Both the position numbers and the translations under genes were made by a program. Below the pieces are notes generated by a model. The model had not been told where the DNA came from and made no database searches. It saw nothing but the letters and a program-made list of their open reading frames with translations. From positions 1,002,685 to 1,066,684 of the forward strand of contig NZ_CP073710.1 of assembly GCF_021184045.1 (NCBI RefSeq): 64,000 nucleotides of DNA, given 5' to 3'. Positions 6,661 through 17,867 of this stretch are shown here, in pieces. Position 1 is the stretch's first letter; each line of letters starts with the position of its first letter. Source of the DNA: Methanococcoides orientis. Lineage in GTDB: Archaea; Halobacteriota; Methanosarcinia; Methanosarcinales; Methanosarcinaceae.

Positions 6661-6773
6661 TCATTTTTTGTCCTTATGAACCACATCTGAAGCATTTTCA
6701 GAAACATCATCCTCTGCAACTTTTGTTTTATCTCGGAGACCCACAACAATGTCTCTTGCTTTCACATTATAAT
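6661..6773 (-). pseudogene. Frameshifted cytoplasmic tail of the FN3-type protease
   Basis: Downstream of the TAA at 6767, a different minus-strand frame encodes about 37 residues, from KGYNVKARD to SDVVHKDKK and a TGA at 6661-6663. This matches the C-terminal tail of the paralogue at 10975 (KGYHIKAKD ... SDVIHKNKK). Removing one T from the run at about 6767-6772 joins the frames. I read this as a single-base insertion, or a sequencing error, separating the tail from the gene. Confidence 0.7.
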
Positions 6774-9700
6774 CCTTTTGATCTTGCAACATACGAAGCT
6801 AATACCAATATAAGCACCATAACCACTGGTATTACAAAGAATAGTATTTCAAACTCCGAGTCAGCTGCTTCTTCAAATCCAGTTTCGTTCAAGTCTTCTA
6901 CTGAGGGTTCAGTAATATTAACAGTACTGGAAACAACAAAAAATCTGGAATCCTCTTCAATTAAACCAATATCATCGGCCACAGCTCCGTTATCCATATC
7001 TGCTGCAATAGCAAATGGTGAAAATCCCGGTGTTTCCGCTTCGAAGTAGATGTATGATCCATCTTCTCCGATCATCTCGGTATCAAGAGCATTCCATTTG
7101 CCTTCACTGTGTCGATATAGTACTATTGAATTCTCATCAATGCCATCCTCTGCCAGCCAGTCTTTTGGCACACTGAACCCTATAACAGGACCAGCAATGT
7201 TATCTGCTGTAGCAAATCCTGATTTACCAACCCAGATGTTAAGATTGCTATAAACAATTCCCGGAGCACTTTCATCGACCATTGCAGATTTGTTCTTAAG
7301 CACTTCGATAGTTGTTGAAACTCTTCCACTATTCCTCAGTGCAGAGAAATTGATGTATTGAATTGCATTCTGTCCATCATCGAAGAGATAACTAATTGTA
7401 AGTCCACCTACAATGTTCTCTGTTTTCACATCCTTAAATACGATGTTATCGAAAGCTTCACCGGTAGACCCACCGCCACCTCCGGAAGAGGAACTACTAC
7501 CAGATGATGTATCATCTGACTTTGTAGCACTTGTACTTATACTCAGATTTACCCAGCTGGAATTGATATTACCGACACTATCAACAGTACGGGTACTAAG
7601 TTCATAAACGGCATCAGCAGTAAGACCACCAGCATTATACGAGGTTGAACTGGTATTAGTCTGGAAAATACCGTCAAGATACAACTCAACATGGTCAAGG
7701 TCAGGATCAGAAGGATTGGACCAGCTCCAATTTATCCAGGTTTCCCCAGGACTACCGCTAAGACCGGTTATACTGGATGGTGTAGTGGTATCGGCAGTGG
7801 TATTTGTACTGGAATTTATCCAATTGAAATTGATGTTACCGACGTTATCAACAGTCCTGGTGCTTAATTCATAACTTGTGTTTGCAGTGAGATGTGTAGC
7901 ATTATAATAAGTTGAACTAGTGTTCAATTTGAAAATATCATCAAGGTAGATCTCAACATGAGAAAAGTCAGGATCATAAGGATTGCTCCAGCTCCAATTG
8001 ATCCAGGTTTCCCCAGGACTGCCAACAAGACCTGTTATACTGGAAGGAGCAGTGATGTCGTTGCTTACAGTAGAATTTATCCAATTGACATTGATGTTAC
8101 CAACGATATCAACGGTCCTGGTGCTCAATTCATAACTGGTATTTGCAGTAAGAGGTGTAGCATTATAATAAGTTGAACTGCTGTTCAACTTTAAAACACC
8201 ATTAAGATAAAGTTCTACATGATCAAAGTCAGGATCAGAAGGATTGGTCCAGCTCCAGTTGATCCAGGTTTCCCCAGGACTGCCAACAAGGCCTGTTATA
8301 CTGGAAGGAGCAGTTGTATCGGCAGTGGTGTTCACACTGGAATTGATCCAACTGGAATTAATGTTACCAACGATATCAACGGTCCTGGTGCTCAATTCGT
8401 AACTGGTATTTGCAGTAAGAGGTGTAGCATTATAATAAGTTGAACTGCTGTTCAACTTTAAAACACCATTAAGATAAAGTTCTACATGATCAAAGTCAGG
8501 ATCAGAAGGATTGGTCCAGCTCCAATTTATCCAGGTTTCACTGGGCAGAGCATTAAGATCGCTTATGCTGGAAGGAGCAATAGAATCATTACCAAATAAT
8601 CCGGACATAACAATTGCAAATGGTTGTGGTCCTTGTGGGACGTTTGTTCCATTCACTGTTATCGTATACCAGCCGGTAGTTGGAGATAACAATTCAACCT
8701 GTTCTACATTGTTTATAGTATCGGGCTGGCTTCCCCCATTTCCTAAATAGGTATCATAAGGACCTGTTACGACTAGATCTAAGTTATTGATCAATTCACC
8801 TGCAGCAATTAGGGATCCGGGATAGTCAGTCCAAACGAGCGTTATTTTGAGGGGGACAGAGCTGCTACCAACGTAATAATTAATATCCCAGGATTCAGAT
8901 GTATTTAAGCTAACCGTACTTGAGGTATCATTGAAATATATTTTGCGAGGAAACGTTGGAAAAAGTGATTCACCGACATCCACACGCCCCCATCCTTGTG
9001 CTGCATCAGGATGCACTTGTATCTCCTATACACCATCATATTGGCCGGGAGACATATCATAAGCACCGTTTATTATTGTAGCCTTAAGTAAGGCTGCAGA
9101 AGGTGTTATGTTTTCATATTCTACATAATATTGCCTCACAAGTGCAGCAGAACCCGCAACTATCGGGGTAGACATACTTGTCCCAGAACTATAACGGTAA
9201 TAAGCATCGTAATCTCCCCACAATTGTCCAGTTGCCACGCTTGACCTAGTCGATATGATATAGGTCCCAGGTGCTACTACATCAGGTTTGATACGCCCAT
9301 CGTCAGTAGGACCCCTACTGCTGAATGCTGCAATTCCTTCGCTATTATTTGCCATTTTGTCACTGTATATTGGTTCAGTAGGCCAAAGAAATGGCTTTCT
9401 GTCACCATATGTATCAGACATGTCTGGCCTGTAGTTCTCGGATGCACCAATTGTCAGGCAATTTTTTGCTGTCGCAGGTGATCCCATAGAATCAAGGTCT
9501 ATTACTCCATCATAGTTTGAATCAACACCATCATTACCAGCAGAAAACAAGATCAACATATCCGGATGCTCCCATGTGAAAAGATCAACATCCTGTGAAT
9601 AAGATGTATATTGGCCATGATCCGAAGATCCCCAACTGTTTGTATGAATTCTTGCATTCAGGTCATACGCTTGCTGGAAAAGGCTTGAAAGATGTGTAGG

Positions 9701-10720
9701 AATTCCACTAAGGCGACCATATCGATCTTCGACCGCCTGAAAAACAAGATGTGCCTCTGGTGCCATCCCATTGAATTGGCCATTAGAGTTAGAACCATTT
9801 CCAAGGACAGATCCTGCAACATGAGTTCCGTGTCCACTGAAAATGTCTGCTGCACCATTACCAGAGAGATCAATTAATGCATCGATCCTTCCTTCAAGAT
9901 CATCATGCATTGAGCCATCATTAAAACCTGTATCCAATCCAGTGTCTGCCACTGCTATGACCTGACCGCTTCCATTCAATCCATGTGTATCCTGAACATA
10001 AGGAACGTTGATTATACCAGCTGCAATATCGTTCAATATAACAGGTTGGTGGTATTCTTCTATCCAGCTAACTCCTTTGATAGCTGCAATATCAGATATT
10101 TTTGTACCATCGATCCTTACCCTCATCAGATCTCCGGAATTATCAACAATTTCACCACCCTGTCCGATAATCTCATTAAAAATACGCTCATTATCCTCTG
10201 CATTGAAGAGAATAACAAGTATCTCTATCTGATCGGACTCACCTGAAATCGAGGATAAGGAAGGACTTATCCTGTATGATGGGTGATAAGGACCAATCCA
10301 TTGTACAGAATCCAGAATCTCAATCTCTGCTTTCACTGAGGAGTTCATGCTTACAATAAAGGCATTATTTGGAACATAATCAAAAATAGTTGCACCAGTA
10401 TCCCTTACATCCTGTTTCCACTCTTCAAGTATATATCCACTGAACTGAACGATATAATATTCACCGTCCCCTGATAAAGAAATACTTTCTGTAGATGTCA
10501 GACTGGAAACAAAAGCAGCTTCTTCCGTATTGAATTGTGAAGCTTTAAGCAAAATATATCTTCCATCATTAGAAGTAGCAGAACTATAACTGCTGCTATG
10601 ATCAAAACTACTTCCAGTAGTATTTTTCGGCAGTGATGATCCGGAAGCAGATGCTAAGATCGGAAATAACATTGCCACCACTAAAAAGATAATCAAGAAC
10701 CAAATCGTTTTTCTTTGCAA
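6767..10720 (-). CDS. Subtilisin-like surface protease with FN3-like repeats, interrupted by in-frame UAG
   Basis: One continuous frame of 1317 codons if UAG is read through. It holds a signal peptide, a propeptide, an S8 protease domain (Asp in VADTGLDTG, His in GHGTHVAGS, Ser in GTSMSTPIVAG), four FN3-like repeats of about 89 residues (ETWINWSWTNPSDPD), a Ser/Gly linker, a PGF-pre-PGF domain and a C-terminal membrane segment. A TAG at 9026-9028 falls where the paralogue at 10975-16680 has Gln, just after the protease core, and homology continues in frame on both sides. Translation stops at 6767, but the paralogue's tail continues in another frame to 6661, so an indel truncated the cytoplasmic tail. 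Start is TTG. It is either a pyrrolysine-containing protein or a decaying gene; if UAG stops translation, a 564-residue protease without anchor is made. Confidence 0.75.
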
Positions 10721-10974: not shown

Positions 10975-13900
10975 TTATTTTTTGTTCTTGTGAATTACAT
11001 CCGACAGAATTCCCGATTCTTCCATCTTTTTGAGCTTTTGTTCAATATCAACTGGCTGTATTTCATTTCCCTGAGCAGTAGGTATTCTTTCAGCAGACTG
11101 ATCAGATATATCCTGCAAATTTGTACTATCAGAAGCAGTTTCTTCTGTAACTTTTACCTCATCAAGGAAGTTGGCAACCCTATCCTTCGCTTTGATATGA
11201 TAGCCTTTGGTTACTCCAATATATGAAGTAGATAACACTATAAGCACCATGAGTATCGGTATTGCAAAATAGACTATATTTAGCTCCGAGTCAGTTGCTC
11301 CTTCAGATCTACTTACAACAATACCTGCATCATCTTCTAAAGCTAATGCTGGTTCCTCATTTATAGGTTCAGGAACCAGACTGCCTTCAGCAATAGCTTC
11401 TTCGCCGGCATCCAATGAAACCGGTTCAGTTTCTATGTATTCAATTATTGCAAAAGGTGAATGTAGATCACCAGAGGTAGACGTCTCATAGTAGATGTAC
11501 TCATCATCCTCATCTATCTTTTCCGTAGGCAAAACATGCCAGTCACCGCTACGATAAATGCTTAGTTTTACAGAATATTCCGAAACTCCGTTATCTTCAA
11601 GCCAGGTACTATTCACTCTGAATCCTACATCAGAAGTTGTCAAACTGCTCTTAAGCCTATCATCGCCAACCCATATATTGATGTTCTTGTACACCCTGCC
11701 TTCTGTCGGATTTGATGCCATTGAAGATGTTGATTTAAGAGACTCAACTATAGCCTTTACTTCACCCATATTCAGGTCTGTTGAGATATTGATGTAAGTA
11801 ATGTCAATGCCTTCATTCCTAAATGTAAATGACCTCTCCAAATCTTTTATCATATGTCTGACTGCAACATCTTTCACAGCTATGTTATCATAGTCTTCAG
11901 CTGTGGTGCTGCTGCCACCACCACCACCTCCGCCACTGGAGGAACTACTGCTAGGACTTGATTTTGTAACAGTGATATAATTCAACTTTTCAATATTATC
12001 AAAAAATTCTGGATTACTGGCGTTTAAAGAAACATTGTAATTACCTTCCGCAGTGTAAGTGTGAGATGGATTTTGTAGAGTTGAAGTGCTGCCATCACCA
12101 AAGTTCCACAACCAGTTGGTAGCATTAGCAGACTGGTCTGTGAAAACTACTGTTAAAGGATAATCGCCTGATCTCGGAGTTGCTGTGAAATCAGCAACTG
12201 GCAGGATTGGAACGGCAGTCACATTGATATGATCGGTCTTGACTTCGGAAGATGTGCCATTGAGATTACTGACAGTGAGATTGACAGTGTACAAACCAAT
12301 CGTATCATAGGTATGAACAATGTTCTGAGTGGAATAATCTTCAGTACCGTCATTATCAATATCCCAGGACCAGGACGTTGCACTACTTGAAAGATCAGTG
12401 AAAGCTACGGTAAGTGGGACATGACCTTCAGTTACATTAGAACTGAAATCAGCAACTGGCAGGATTGGAACGGCAGTCACATTGATATGATCGGTCTTGA
12501 CTTCGGAAGATGTGCCATTGAGATTACTAACAGTGAGATTGACAGTGTACAGACCAATCGTATCATAGGTATGAACAATGTTCTGAGTGGAATAATCTTC
12601 AGTACCGTCATTATCAATATCCCAGGACCAGCTACTTGCACTACTTGAAAGATCAGTGAAAGCTACAGTAAGTGGGACATGACCTTCAGTGGTATTAGAA
12701 CTGAAATCAGCAACCGGCAGGATTGGAACGGCAGTCACATTGATATGATCGATCTTGACTTCGGAAGATGTGCCATTGAGATTACTAACAGTGAGATTGA
12801 CAGTGTACAGACCAATCGTATCATAGGTATGAACAATGTTCTGAGTGGAATAATCTTCAGTACCGTCATTATCAATATCCCAGGACCAGGACGTTGCACT
12901 ACTTGAAAGATCGGTGAAAGCTACAGTAAGTGGGACATGACCTTCAGTTACATTCGAGCTGAAATCAGCAACCGGCAGGATTGGAACGGCAGTCACATTG
13001 ATATGATCGGTCTTGACTTCGGAAGATGTGCCATTGAGATTACTGACAGTGAGATTGACAGTGTACAGACCAATCGTATCATAGGTATGAACAATGTTCT
13101 GAGTGGAATAATCTTCAGTACCGTCATTATCAATATCCCAGGACCAGCTACTTGCACTACTTGAAAGATCAGTGAAAGCTACAGTAAGTGGGACATGACC
13201 TTCAGTTACATTCGAGCTGAAATCAGCAACCGGCAGGATTGGAACGGCAGTCACATTGATATGATCGGTCTTGACTTCGGAAGATGTGCCATTGAGATTA
13301 CTGACAGTGAGATTGACAGTGTACAGACCAATCGTATCATAGGTATGAACAATGTTCTGAGTGGAATAATCTTCAGTACCGTCATTATCAATATCCCAGG
13401 ACCAGCTACTTGCACTACTTGAAAGATCAGTGAAAGCTACAGTAAGTGGGACATGACCTTCAGTGGTATTAGAACTGAAAGCAGCAACCGGCAGGATTGG
13501 AACGGCAGTCACATTGATATGATCGGTCTTGACTTCGGAAGATGTGCCATTGAGATTACTGACAGTGAGATTGACAGTGTACAAACCAATCGTATCATAG
13601 GTATGAACAATGTTCTGAGTGGAATAATCTTCAGTACCGTCATTATCAATATCCCAGGACCAGGACGTTGCACTACTTGAAAGATCAGTGAAAGCTACGG
13701 TAAGTGGGACATGACCTTCAGTTACATTAGAACTGAAATCAGCAACTGGCAGGATTGGAACGGCAGTCACATTGATATGATCGGTCTTGACTTCGGAAGA
13801 TGTGTCATTGAGATTACTGACAGTGAGATTGACAGTGTACAAACCAATCGTATCATAGGTATGGATAATGTTCTGAGTGGAATAATCTTCAGTACCGTCA

Positions 13901-16680
13901 TTATCAATATCCCAGGACCAGCTACTTGCACTACTTGAAAGATCAGTGAAAGCTACAGTAAGTGGGACATGACCTTCAGTGGTATTAGAACTGAAAGCAG
14001 CAACCGGCAGGATTGGAACGGCAGTCACATTGATATGATCAGTCTTGACTTCGGAAGATGTGCCATTGAGATTACTGACAGTGAGATTGACAGTGTACAG
14101 ACCAATCGTATCATAGGTATGAGCAATGTTCTGAGTGGAATAATCTTCAGTACCGTCATTATCAATATCCCAGGACCAGCTACTTGCACTACTTGAAAGA
14201 TCAGTGAAAGCTACAGTAAGTGGGACATGACCTTCAGTTACATTCGAGCTGAAATCAGCAACCGGCAGGATTGGAACGGCAGTCACATTGATATGATCGG
14301 TCTTGACTTCGGAAGATGTGCCATTGAGATTACTGACAGTGAGATTGACAGTGTACAGACCAATCGTATCATAGGTATGAACAATGTTCTGAGTGGAATA
14401 ATCTTCAGTACCGTCATTATCAATATCCCAGGACCAGCTACTTGCACTACTTGAAAGATCAGTGAAAGCTACGGTAAGTGGGACATGACCTTCAGTGGTA
14501 TTAGAACTGAAAGCAGCAACCGGATAGATAGCAGCAGATTCTGGATATAGTCCCCCTGACATAACAATTGCAAATGGCTGTGGCCCATTCGGAACATCTG
14601 TGCCATTTACTGTTATTGTATATAACCCAATAGAAGGCGATAGCACTTCGACCTGTTCGACATTATTTATATAATCAGATTGACTTCCACCATTTCCTAA
14701 GTAGGTGCTGCCTGGCCCTATCACAGTTAGATCCAAATCGTTAACCAAATCATATGTTGCAGCTTCAAATTTAGGATAATCAGTCCACACAACCGTTACT
14801 TTAAGTGGTTCAGAACTGCTACCAACATAGTAATTAATGTTCCAAGATTCAGATGTACTTAAGCTAATAGTACTGGATGTATCATTATAATATATCTTTC
14901 GAGGGGACTTTGGGAAAAGTGATTCCTCGATGTTCACACGCCCCCATCCCTGCGCTCCATCGGGACGTATTTGTATTTCCTGTGTAGAAGCTGAGCCATA
15001 TTGCCCGGGCGTCATATTATAGGCACCGTTTATTATCGTAGCTTTAAGTAAGGCTGCAGATGGTGTTATGCTTTCATATTCGACATAATATTGCCTCACA
15101 AGTGCAGCAGAACCTGCAACAATAGGAGTAGACATACTTGTACCACCACTATAACGGTAATAAGCATCGTAATCTCCCCATAATTGTCCAGTTGCCACGC
15201 TTGAATTTGTGGATATGACAAATGTACCTGGTGCTACAACATCAGGTTTAATACGACCATCATCAGTAGGCCCTCTACTGCTAAATGCTGCAAGACCTTC
15301 GATATTATCTGCCATTTTGTCACTGTATATTGGTCCTACCGGAAAATCAAGCGGCCAGCTACCACCATATGTATTAGTTATACTCACCCTGTTGTTTTCC
15401 GATGCGCCAACCGTCAAACAATTCTTTGCCGTTGCAGGTGATCCAATGGAATCAGGGTCTACTATTCCATCAGAGTCTGAGTCCTCACCATTGTTCCCTG
15501 CAGAGAACAGAATCAGCATATCCGGATGTTCCCACGCGAAGAGATCAACATTGCGTGAATCTACAGTATATTCACCATCTAACGGTGCTCCCCAACTGTT
15601 TGTATGAATTCTTGCATTCAAATCATATGCCTGTTGGAAAAGATATGAAAGGTTTGCAGGAATTCCACCAAGACTTTCATCTGCATCTTCAACAGCCTGA
15701 AAAACAAGTCGTGCTTCTGGTGCCATTCCCTTGAATTGGCCACTCGAGTTAGAACCGTCTCCAAGGACAGAGCCTGCAACATGAGTTCCGTGTCCAGTGT
15801 AAATGTCTGCTGCACCGTTATCAGAAAGATCTATCAATGCATTGATCCTACCTTCAAGATCATCATGCATTGAACTATCATCGACACCAGTATCCAATCC
15901 AGTATCTGCCACTGCTACGATCTGGCCACTACCGGTTAATCCATGCGTATCCTGAACATAAGAAACGTTGATTATACCAGCTGCAACATCATTCAATATC
16001 ACAGGCTGCACATATTTTTCTATCCAGCTGATCCCATCCAAAGCTGCAATATAAGAAATATTCATTTTATTGATCCTGACTCTTATTATATCCCCAGAAT
16101 CATCAACTATTTCACCGCCAAGTCCGGTAATCTCATTAAAAATATGCTCATTGTCCTTTGAATCGAAGAGCATCACAATTATATCTACCTGACCAGCATC
16201 TTCAGAAATAGAGGAGAGCCCCGGGCTGATCCTGTATGATGGATAATATAGACCTACCCATTGTACAGAGTCAAGATTCTCGACTTCGGTTTTGACTGAA
16301 GAATTCATGCGTATAATAAAAGCATTGTTCGGTACATAATCAAAAATAACTGCACCAGTATCTCTTACATCCTGTTTCCAGTCTTCAAGTACATATCCTT
16401 TAAACTGAACTATATAATATTCATCGGAAGTTGAAGAAGAAGTGCTTTCCATAGTTGACATACTGGAAACAGAAGTAACTTCTTCTGTGTTGAATTGTAC
16501 AGCTTTAAGTAGGATATATCTTCCATCATTAGAAATCGCGGAAACAGAACTGCTGCTATGATCAAAACCACTTTCAGTAGTATTTTCCGGCAATGTTGTT
16601 CCTGAAGCTAATGTTAGCACGGAAAATAATGTTGCAATCACTAAAAGCATAGTGAAAAGCCAGATAGTTTTACTCTGCAA
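10975..16680 (-). CDS. Subtilisin-like surface protease with ten PKD domains and PGF-pre-PGF domain
   Basis: A 1901-residue secreted protease. Order: signal peptide (1-27), propeptide, S8 domain with Asp259, His297 and Ser515, a beta-rich P-type segment (to about 715), nine almost identical 86-residue PKD repeats (about 720-1494), one divergent PKD (WLWNFGDGST), a Ser/Gly linker, a PGF-pre-PGF domain, a membrane helix (IPILMVLIVLSTSYIG) and a Lys-ending cytoplasmic tail of about 75 residues. PKD domains usually bind surface polymers or proteins, so it should digest extracellular or cell-wall protein at the surface. Start is TTG, preceded by GGTG. Its target is unknown. It is a close paralogue of the genes on both sides. 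Confidence 0.93.
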   Translation of the reverse strand: MQSKTIWLFTMLLVIATLFSVLTLASGTTLPENTTESGFDHSSSSVSAISNDGRYILLKAVQFNTEEVTSVSSMSTMESTSSSTSDEYYIVQFKGYVLEDWKQDVRDTGAVIFDYVPNNAFIIRMNSSVKTEVENLDSVQWVGLYYPSYRISPGLSSISEDAGQVDIIVMLFDSKDNEHIFNEITGLGGEIVDDSGDIIRVRINKMNISYIAALDGISWIEKYVQPVILNDVAAGIINVSYVQDTHGLTGSGQIVAVADTGLDTGVDDSSMHDDLEGRINALIDLSDNGAADIYTGHGTHVAGSVLGDGSNSSGQFKGMAPEARLVFQAVEDADESLGGIPANLSYLFQQAYDLNARIHTNSWGAPLDGEYTVDSRNVDLFAWEHPDMLILFSAGNNGEDSDSDGIVDPDSIGSPATAKNCLTVGASENNRVSITNTYGGSWPLDFPVGPIYSDKMADNIEGLAAFSSRGPTDDGRIKPDVVAPGTFVISTNSSVATGQLWGDYDAYYRYSGGTSMSTPIVAGSAALVRQYYVEYESITPSAALLKATIINGAYNMTPGQYGSASTQEIQIRPDGAQGWGRVNIEESLFPKSPRKIYYNDTSSTISLSTSESWNINYYVGSSSEPLKVTVVWTDYPKFEAATYDLVNDLDLTVIGPGSTYLGNGGSQSDYINNVEQVEVLSPSIGLYTITVNGTDVPNGPQPFAIVMSGGLYPESAAIYPVAAFSSNTTEGHVPLTVAFTDLSSSASSWSWDIDNDGTEDYSTQNIVHTYDTIGLYTVNLTVSNLNGTSSEVKTDHINVTAVPILPVADFSSNVTEGHVPLTVAFTDLSSSASSWSWDIDNDGTEDYSTQNIAHTYDTIGLYTVNLTVSNLNGTSSEVKTDHINVTAVPILPVAAFSSNTTEGHVPLTVAFTDLSSSASSWSWDIDNDGTEDYSTQNIIHTYDTIGLYTVNLTVSNLNDTSSEVKTDHINVTAVPILPVADFSSNVTEGHVPLTVAFTDLSSSATSWSWDIDNDGTEDYSTQNIVHTYDTIGLYTVNLTVSNLNGTSSEVKTDHINVTAVPILPVAAFSSNTTEGHVPLTVAFTDLSSSASSWSWDIDNDGTEDYSTQNIVHTYDTIGLYTVNLTVSNLNGTSSEVKTDHINVTAVPILPVADFSSNVTEGHVPLTVAFTDLSSSASSWSWDIDNDGTEDYSTQNIVHTYDTIGLYTVNLTVSNLNGTSSEVKTDHINVTAVPILPVADFSSNVTEGHVPLTVAFTDLSSSATSWSWDIDNDGTEDYSTQNIVHTYDTIGLYTVNLTVSNLNGTSSEVKIDHINVTAVPILPVADFSSNTTEGHVPLTVAFTDLSSSASSWSWDIDNDGTEDYSTQNIVHTYDTIGLYTVNLTVSNLNGTSSEVKTDHINVTAVPILPVADFSSNVTEGHVPLTVAFTDLSSSATSWSWDIDNDGTEDYSTQNIVHTYDTIGLYTVNLTVSNLNGTSSEVKTDHINVTAVPILPVADFTATPRSGDYPLTVVFTDQSANATNWLWNFGDGSTSTLQNPSHTYTAEGNYNVSLNASNPEFFDNIEKLNYITVTKSSPSSSSSSGGGGGGGSSTTAEDYDNIAVKDVAVRHMIKDLERSFTFRNEGIDITYINISTDLNMGEVKAIVESLKSTSSMASNPTEGRVYKNINIWVGDDRLKSSLTTSDVGFRVNSTWLEDNGVSEYSVKLSIYRSGDWHVLPTEKIDEDDEYIYYETSTSGDLHSPFAIIEYIETEPVSLDAGEEAIAEGSLVPEPINEEPALALEDDAGIVVSRSEGATDSELNIVYFAIPILMVLIVLSTSYIGVTKGYHIKAKDRVANFLDEVKVTEETASDSTNLQDISDQSAERIPTAQGNEIQPVDIEQKLKKMEESGILSDVIHKNKK
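12199..14521 (-). repeat. Nine tandem 258-bp PKD-coding repeats
   Basis: Nine direct repeats of exactly 258 bp encode PKD domains starting PVA(A/D)FSSN(T/V)TEGHV. Only a few positions vary: A or D, T or V, SASS or SATS, and single substitutions such as NDTSS and EVKIDH. The variants occur in shuffled combinations. Such near identity, silent sites included, indicates very recent expansion or continuing homogenisation. The copy number may vary between strains and could be mis-assembled from short reads. Confidence 0.95.
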
Positions 16681-16844: not shown

Positions 16845-17867
16845 TTATTTTTTATGTTTGTAAACAATATCTGAGATAATGTTAGAATCTTTCAGCGCCT
16901 TGATCTTCTGTTCAATATCAATTAACTGAATTTCATCCACCTGGGTTCGAGTTATTGTTTCAGTGGATGGAATGGAAATTTCCTGACCATTCGTGCTATC
17001 TGAAACAGTTCCAGAAACAGCATCCTCTGCAACTTGTTTTTCATCTTGAGGAGGAGGAGCACTACCTATTGCTTCAGCATGATATCCTTTTGTTTTACCA
17101 ACATACGAAGTGGATAGCACTATAAGCACTATAAGTGCCGGTATTGCAAACAATAATATATTTAAGTTCGAGTCAGTCGCTCCTTCAGATTCACTTGCAA
17201 CAATACTTGTGTCCCCTTCCAAAGCTAATGCCGACTCTTCATTTATAGGTTCAGAAACCAGATTTTCCCCAGCAATAGATCCTTCGCCGGCATTCAATGA
17301 AACTGCTTCATTTTCTATAGATTCAACTATTGCGAAGTGCGTACGCAGATCACCTGAGGTATTAGCCTCATAGTAGCTGTAATCATCATCCTCATCTATC
17401 TTTTCTGTGGGTAAAATGTCCCAGTTACCACTAAGAAAAATGCTTAGTTTTACAGATTGATCGGAAACATCGTTATCTTCCAGCCAGGTACGATTTACTC
17501 TGAATCCTACATCAGAAGTTATCAATCTGTGCTCAAGCTTGGTATCACCAACCCATATGTTGATGTTCTTGTACACTCGGCCTTCTGCCGGAGTTGATAC
17601 CATTGAAGAGGTCGAGTTTAGAGATTCCACTATTGCCTTTACATCCCCCACAGTCAGATCTGTTGAGATGTTGATATAAGTGATATCAATCCCCTCATTC
17701 CTAAAAGTAAATGATTTCTCAACATCCCTTAGTACATATCTTACTGCAACATCTTTTTCATCTATATTCTCAAATGCTTCAGCCGTAGCATTACCTACTG
17801 ACAAAATCAAAAATGATGTTGCTATCACTAAAAAGATAGTGAAAAACCAGATATATTTATTCTTCAA
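16845..17867 (-). CDS. PGF-pre-PGF domain surface protein without protease domain
   Basis: A 340-residue protein: signal peptide (about 1-28), then directly a PGF-pre-PGF domain (VAVRYVLRDVEKSFTFRN ... VYKNINIWVGD), a membrane helix (NILLFAIPALIVLIVLSTSYVG) and a charged cytoplasmic tail ending SDIVYKHKK. Each part is closely similar to the ends of the PKD-type protease upstream, as if the protease and repeat region had been deleted from a duplicate. It could act as an anchor or partner for its paralogues; that is inference. The start is TTG with a GGGGG-rich site before it, as in the other two genes. Confidence 0.85.
   Translation of the reverse strand: MKNKYIWFFTIFLVIATSFLILSVGNATAEAFENIDEKDVAVRYVLRDVEKSFTFRNEGIDITYINISTDLTVGDVKAIVESLNSTSSMVSTPAEGRVYKNINIWVGDTKLEHRLITSDVGFRVNRTWLEDNDVSDQSVKLSIFLSGNWDILPTEKIDEDDDYSYYEANTSGDLRTHFAIVESIENEAVSLNAGEGSIAGENLVSEPINEESALALEGDTSIVASESEGATDSNLNILLFAIPALIVLIVLSTSYVGKTKGYHAEAIGSAPPPQDEKQVAEDAVSGTVSDSTNGQEISIPSTETITRTQVDEIQLIDIEQKIKALKDSNIISDIVYKHKK

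Follow-up and report, generated by a model that had tools for sequence, protein, structure and literature searches.

The window analysed here is a 64,000-nucleotide stretch of the Methanococcoides orientis chromosome (contig NZ_CP073710.1) in which the gene of a predicted surface protease carries an in-frame TAG and lies next to an intact paralogue. The protease gene starts on the minus strand with a TTG at 10720, runs through 564 sense codons to the TAG at 9026-9028 and continues in the same frame for 752 further open codons to a TAA at 6767-6769, so that read-through would give a product of 1317 residues. The initial annotation had correctly described this unbroken frame and its length, and had proposed the TAG as a candidate pyrrolysine (Pyl) site. 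The features of the locus are as follows:

9026..9028, minus strand: in-frame TAG, codon 565, a putative pyrrolysine codon; the aligned homologues all have CAG (Gln); it lies in a loop that neither KP-43 nor the M. burtonii-type homologues possess
9029..10720, minus strand: codons 1-564, with signal/membrane segment, propeptide and most of the subtilase domain
8987..9973, minus strand: Peptidase_S8 domain of the read-through protein, extending beyond the TAG
6767..9025, minus strand: 752 codons and terminal TAA, with the end of the catalytic domain, a KP-43-like beta domain, FN3-type repeats, PGF-pre-PGF domain and membrane anchor
7004..7456, minus strand: PGF-pre-PGF domain (TIGR04213)
6661..6766, minus strand: remains of a longer cytoplasmic tail in a different frame, beyond the single-base frame change near 6770 and outside the translated gene
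10975..16680, minus strand: intact paralogue with PKD repeats and CAG at the TAG-equivalent site

Architecture of the protease gene and its paralogue

By its predicted domains, the protease is a membrane-anchored subtilase of the KP-43-like type that carries FN3 repeats. The Peptidase_S8 Pfam match in the read-through protein (E=4e-48) covers residues 255-583. In that frame the TAG is residue 570, and QGWGRV, a conserved segment of this domain, lies 3' of it, so termination at the TAG would shorten the catalytic domain. The 564-residue product that was first envisaged as a secreted protease does correspond to the number of codons preceding the TAG, but its catalytic domain would be incomplete. 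The PGF-pre-PGF domain (E=5.5e-55) precedes a C-terminal membrane helix. The nearest solved relatives are KP-43 (1wmd) and SubHal (5fax), matched with E about 1e-105 to 1e-107 over query residues 230-704; they have the subtilase core and C-terminal beta domain in common with the window protease, which differs by its additional FN3 repeats, PGF-pre-PGF domain, anchor and TAG-bearing loop.

The one-base frame change near 6770, also reported in the initial annotation, was confirmed: a cytoplasmic tail resembling that of the paralogue is encoded in a different frame, which ends with a TGA at 6661-6663. The change falls after the membrane anchor, and the orthologues in genomes G003, G004 and G005 likewise end soon after the anchor, so it provides no evidence of decay of the protease.

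Additional observations were made on the neighboring and orthologous genes. The paralogue contains about nine near-identical PKD repeats with a spacing of 258 bases (window 12400-14500), which suggests recent expansion or homogenisation, and a short protein encoded at window 16845-17867 consists of a paralogue-like C-terminal PGF-pre-PGF domain and anchor fused directly to a signal peptide, without a protease. Besides, the window gene (6767-8600) and its orthologue in the sister species (L045) are alike up to the FN3 part but differ in the C-terminal domains that follow, suggesting that paralogues have exchanged domains.

Pyrrolysine machinery and TAG usage in the genome

The window comes from a methylotrophic methanogen of the Methanococcoides type, whose genome consists of a single closed contig of 2,494,162 bases, with an estimated completeness of 99.99%. 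The genes pylT (tRNA-Pyl, anticodon CUA), pylS, pylB, pylC and pylD, the search for which had been suggested as a check of the candidate site, are all present and intact in one cluster; PylC was detected with TIGR03909, and no match to the PylC profile PF21360 was found in the genome. Two mtmB genes were also identified, each with one in-frame TAG. The pylB gene itself ends in TAG beside the pylC start in all 11 genomes of the genus (L011:8129-8131; loci L094-L103). If this UAG were read as Pyl, PylB would be longer by about 42 residues, and a feedback role would be possible. A terminal TAG in pylB has been reported for several species (PMC2933860), and since pylB still ends in TAG, the decoding of UAG need not be absolute.

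Codon usage was counted for confident coding frames on sampled stretches amounting to 860 kb of the 2.49 Mb genome. Among the 637 frame ends, TAA was observed 271 times, TGA 351 times and TAG only 15 times, and an open extension of at least 60 codons followed 10 of the 15 TAG-ended frames, compared to 57 of the 622 (9%) ended by TAA or TGA (Fisher p=1.7e-7). Chance does not account for the in-frame TAGs of coding regions in this genome. Among the interrupted frames are two mtmB genes, mtbB and the genes for a biotin carboxylase, a PPTase-like protein, a DUF3987 protein and surface-type proteins. TAG is rare at gene ends and frequent within conserved genes, as in a genome-wide pyrrolysine code, which indicates that UAG is generally a sense codon in this genome and genus.

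Comparison across the genus showed that several of these codons are shared or have arisen repeatedly. The biotin carboxylase (acetyl-CoA/pyruvate carboxylase subunit A type; L075:6503-8014, genome 166503-168014) carries its TAG at L075:7751, in the C-terminal domain, and this TAG is common to six Methanococcoides species, while Ile or Val takes its place in the four remaining species that possess the gene; the shared TAG constitutes stronger evidence for sense UAG than the TAG of the protease. In the PPTase-like gene (L082:9318-10064, TAG at L082:9609), three species share a TAG that arose from CAG, the codon seen in three others, and a further TAG of independent origin occupies a TCG position in two other species. 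The TAG of the DUF3987 gene occurs in this genome only, two relatives having TGG. No TAA or TGA interruption was found in any genus match to the biotin carboxylase, PPTase-like, DUF3987 or protease genes. Two more surface-type genes, at L020:6731 and L084:8316, also contain an in-frame TAG followed by an open extension; one of them has a PGF-pre-PGF domain and the other shows weak S-layer similarity.

Conservation of the codon and selection downstream

The Gln noted initially in the paralogue at the position of the TAG is encoded there by CAG, and the same codon was found in all five aligned homologues (the adjacent paralogue, G003, G004, G005 and G010), TAG being present at codon 565 in one genome only. 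The sister species G004, whose protein is 93% identical, has CAG at codon 565 and an in-frame TAG of its own at codon 164, where every other aligned copy has CAG; the two TAGs are thus best read as two separate CAG-to-TAG changes. No other stop was found within the 1317 codons of the window gene or the 1495 codons of the G004 gene, and the comparison with sister species revealed no decay-type stops in G004. TAG is the commonest target of one-step transitions in the protease gene (38 of 80 routes), so that the occurrence of TAG rather than TAA or TGA at both sites is weak evidence when considered alone.

The conservation that characterizes a catalytic Pyl of the MtmB/MtbB/MttB type is lacking at the protease position, where all five homologues have CAG, which makes a catalytic role of Pyl in the protease unlikely. 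The loop bearing the TAG, an insertion relative to KP-43, would be surface-exposed on that basis; an AlphaFold prediction of a 718-residue part from three sequences was of low confidence (mean pLDDT 33). The gene itself is accessory, as it was not found in two of the 11 genomes of the genus and only weak matches were obtained in a third. Moreover, a homologue in G039 is interrupted by TGA, the one TGA carrier in roughly 80 homologous matches across the family, indicating that ordinary decay does occur in the wider protease family. The unconserved position, the accessory status of the gene and this TGA-interrupted relative speak against decoding of the TAG as Pyl, as does the TAG that ends pylB.

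Between the window gene and its G004 orthologue, dN/dS was 0.37 for codons 1-163, 0.18 for codons 165-564, 0.19 for codons 566-718 and 0.11 for codons 719-830. Changes polarised with three outgroups comprised five nonsynonymous and 10 synonymous changes on the window branch 3' of its TAG, and 15 nonsynonymous and 22 synonymous changes on the G004 branch 3' of its own TAG (codons 165-718), so that in both branches nonsynonymous changes were below the neutral 3:1 expectation. Selection 3' of the codon is therefore not visibly relaxed. Purifying selection acts after both TAGs, with dN/dS of about 0.1-0.2, values that are supporting rather than conclusive evidence, as they may partly predate the TAG.

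Interpretation of the in-frame TAG

These results agree with the proposal made for codon 565 in the initial annotation. Very probably, the TAG of the protease is read as pyrrolysine in an organism that uses UAG as an ordinary sense codon, through what would be one of many near-neutral exchanges of Gln for Pyl. Three features of a Pyl-encoding gene were found together: tRNA-Pyl(CUA), PylS and PylBCD in the host, a frame that stays open across the TAG with homology on either side of it, and purifying selection downstream. According to this interpretation, UAG would be a genome-wide pyrrolysine codon that seldom serves as a terminator; an ancestral CAG (Gln) in an insertion loop of the subtilase would have become TAG by drift, through a single C-to-T transition; and charged tRNA-Pyl would decode UAG to give the full-length protease of 1317 residues with Pyl replacing Gln. 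The exchange would probably be close to neutral in a tolerant loop, Pyl having no catalytic role and the codon no function as a programmed switch between two forms. Translation of the UAG at codon 565, its efficiency and the insertion of Pyl are what we infer from the genomic context.

Plain decay had been held to be an equal candidate, in which case the TAG would be a nonsense mutation, with a second lesion at the frame change near 6770. We consider such an early pseudogene unlikely. The accessory nature of the gene, the intact paralogue nearby, the restriction of the TAG to one genome, the shifted tail frame and the TGA-interrupted homologue in G039 would all be consistent with decay, although the frame change touches only the tail beyond the anchor, which is short in the orthologues too, and both the window gene and its counterpart in the sister species remain free of further stops and under purifying selection after their TAGs. 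Besides, the full pyl set and the general sense use of TAG in this genome argue for decoding of the codon rather than for decay of the gene.

Partial decoding of UAG had also been suggested to yield both a secreted short protease and an anchored long one, in which case the ratio could be set by the Pyl supply, that is, by methylamine availability, and UAG decoding would decide between an anchored and a released surface protease. Competition between Pyl-tRNA and the single archaeal release factor is expected at UAG, which favors this possibility, as does the truncated mtmB product reported under some constructs (PMC2933860). A useful short protease is nevertheless very improbable, since the S8 domain of the terminated product would be missing its end, with the QGWGRV segment, and the TAG of G004 precedes the whole catalytic domain, so that termination there would leave no protease at all. 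The TAG site is moreover unconserved, and folding of the RNA downstream of the TAG revealed nothing unusual (z -0.5) that would resemble a PYLIS-like element. A sequencing or assembly error, to which the presence of the TAG at codon 565 in one genome might be attributed, is scarcely credible given the single closed contig, its 99.99% estimated completeness and the similar changes seen in other genes and in the genome of the sister species.

An archaeal genetic code in which all TAG codons stand for pyrrolysine has reportedly been described (Kivenson and colleagues, in Science, 2025); the window gene resembles that case in that TAG behaves as sense throughout the genome of a Pyl-using archaeon, its own membership being deduced from DNA only. 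In MtmB, MtbB and MttB an in-frame TAG is likewise read through in the same genome as the protease, but there Pyl is catalytic and its position conserved, whereas in the protease it would replace Gln at an unconserved site. Another parallel is Thg1 of Methanosarcina acetivorans, a non-methyltransferase gene of a Pyl-using methanogen in which an in-frame UAG was gained in one lineage; Pyl was observed in this protein and is dispensable for its activity (PMC2933860). The two cases differ in that Thg1 is an intracellular tRNA enzyme in which Pyl was seen directly, while the window protein is a predicted surface protease whose Pyl is read from the genome. It has also been noted that amber is little used as a stop in Pyl-using methanogens (PMC3941956), and neutral acquisition of in-frame UAG has been proposed for some candidates (PMC3639795).

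The initial remark that Pyl would be unusual in a protease holds historically, outside the methyltransferases, but not for this genus, in which in-frame TAGs in ordinary genes are common. In our literature search, no publication describing a Pyl-containing Methanococcoides protease was found. Since Pyl outside the methylamine methyltransferases is already known, the protease would add one more instance of an established phenomenon. With standard annotation (table 11), genes of this type will be split or labelled as pseudogenes. Overall, the protease may provide a clean case of UAG drifting into an ordinary structural gene, with two different CAG-to-TAG changes in the same protease of two sister species, in neither of which the gene shows decay. 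Together with the biotin carboxylase TAG of six species, it leads to the testable claim that pyrrolysine in this genus extends well past the methylamine enzymes.
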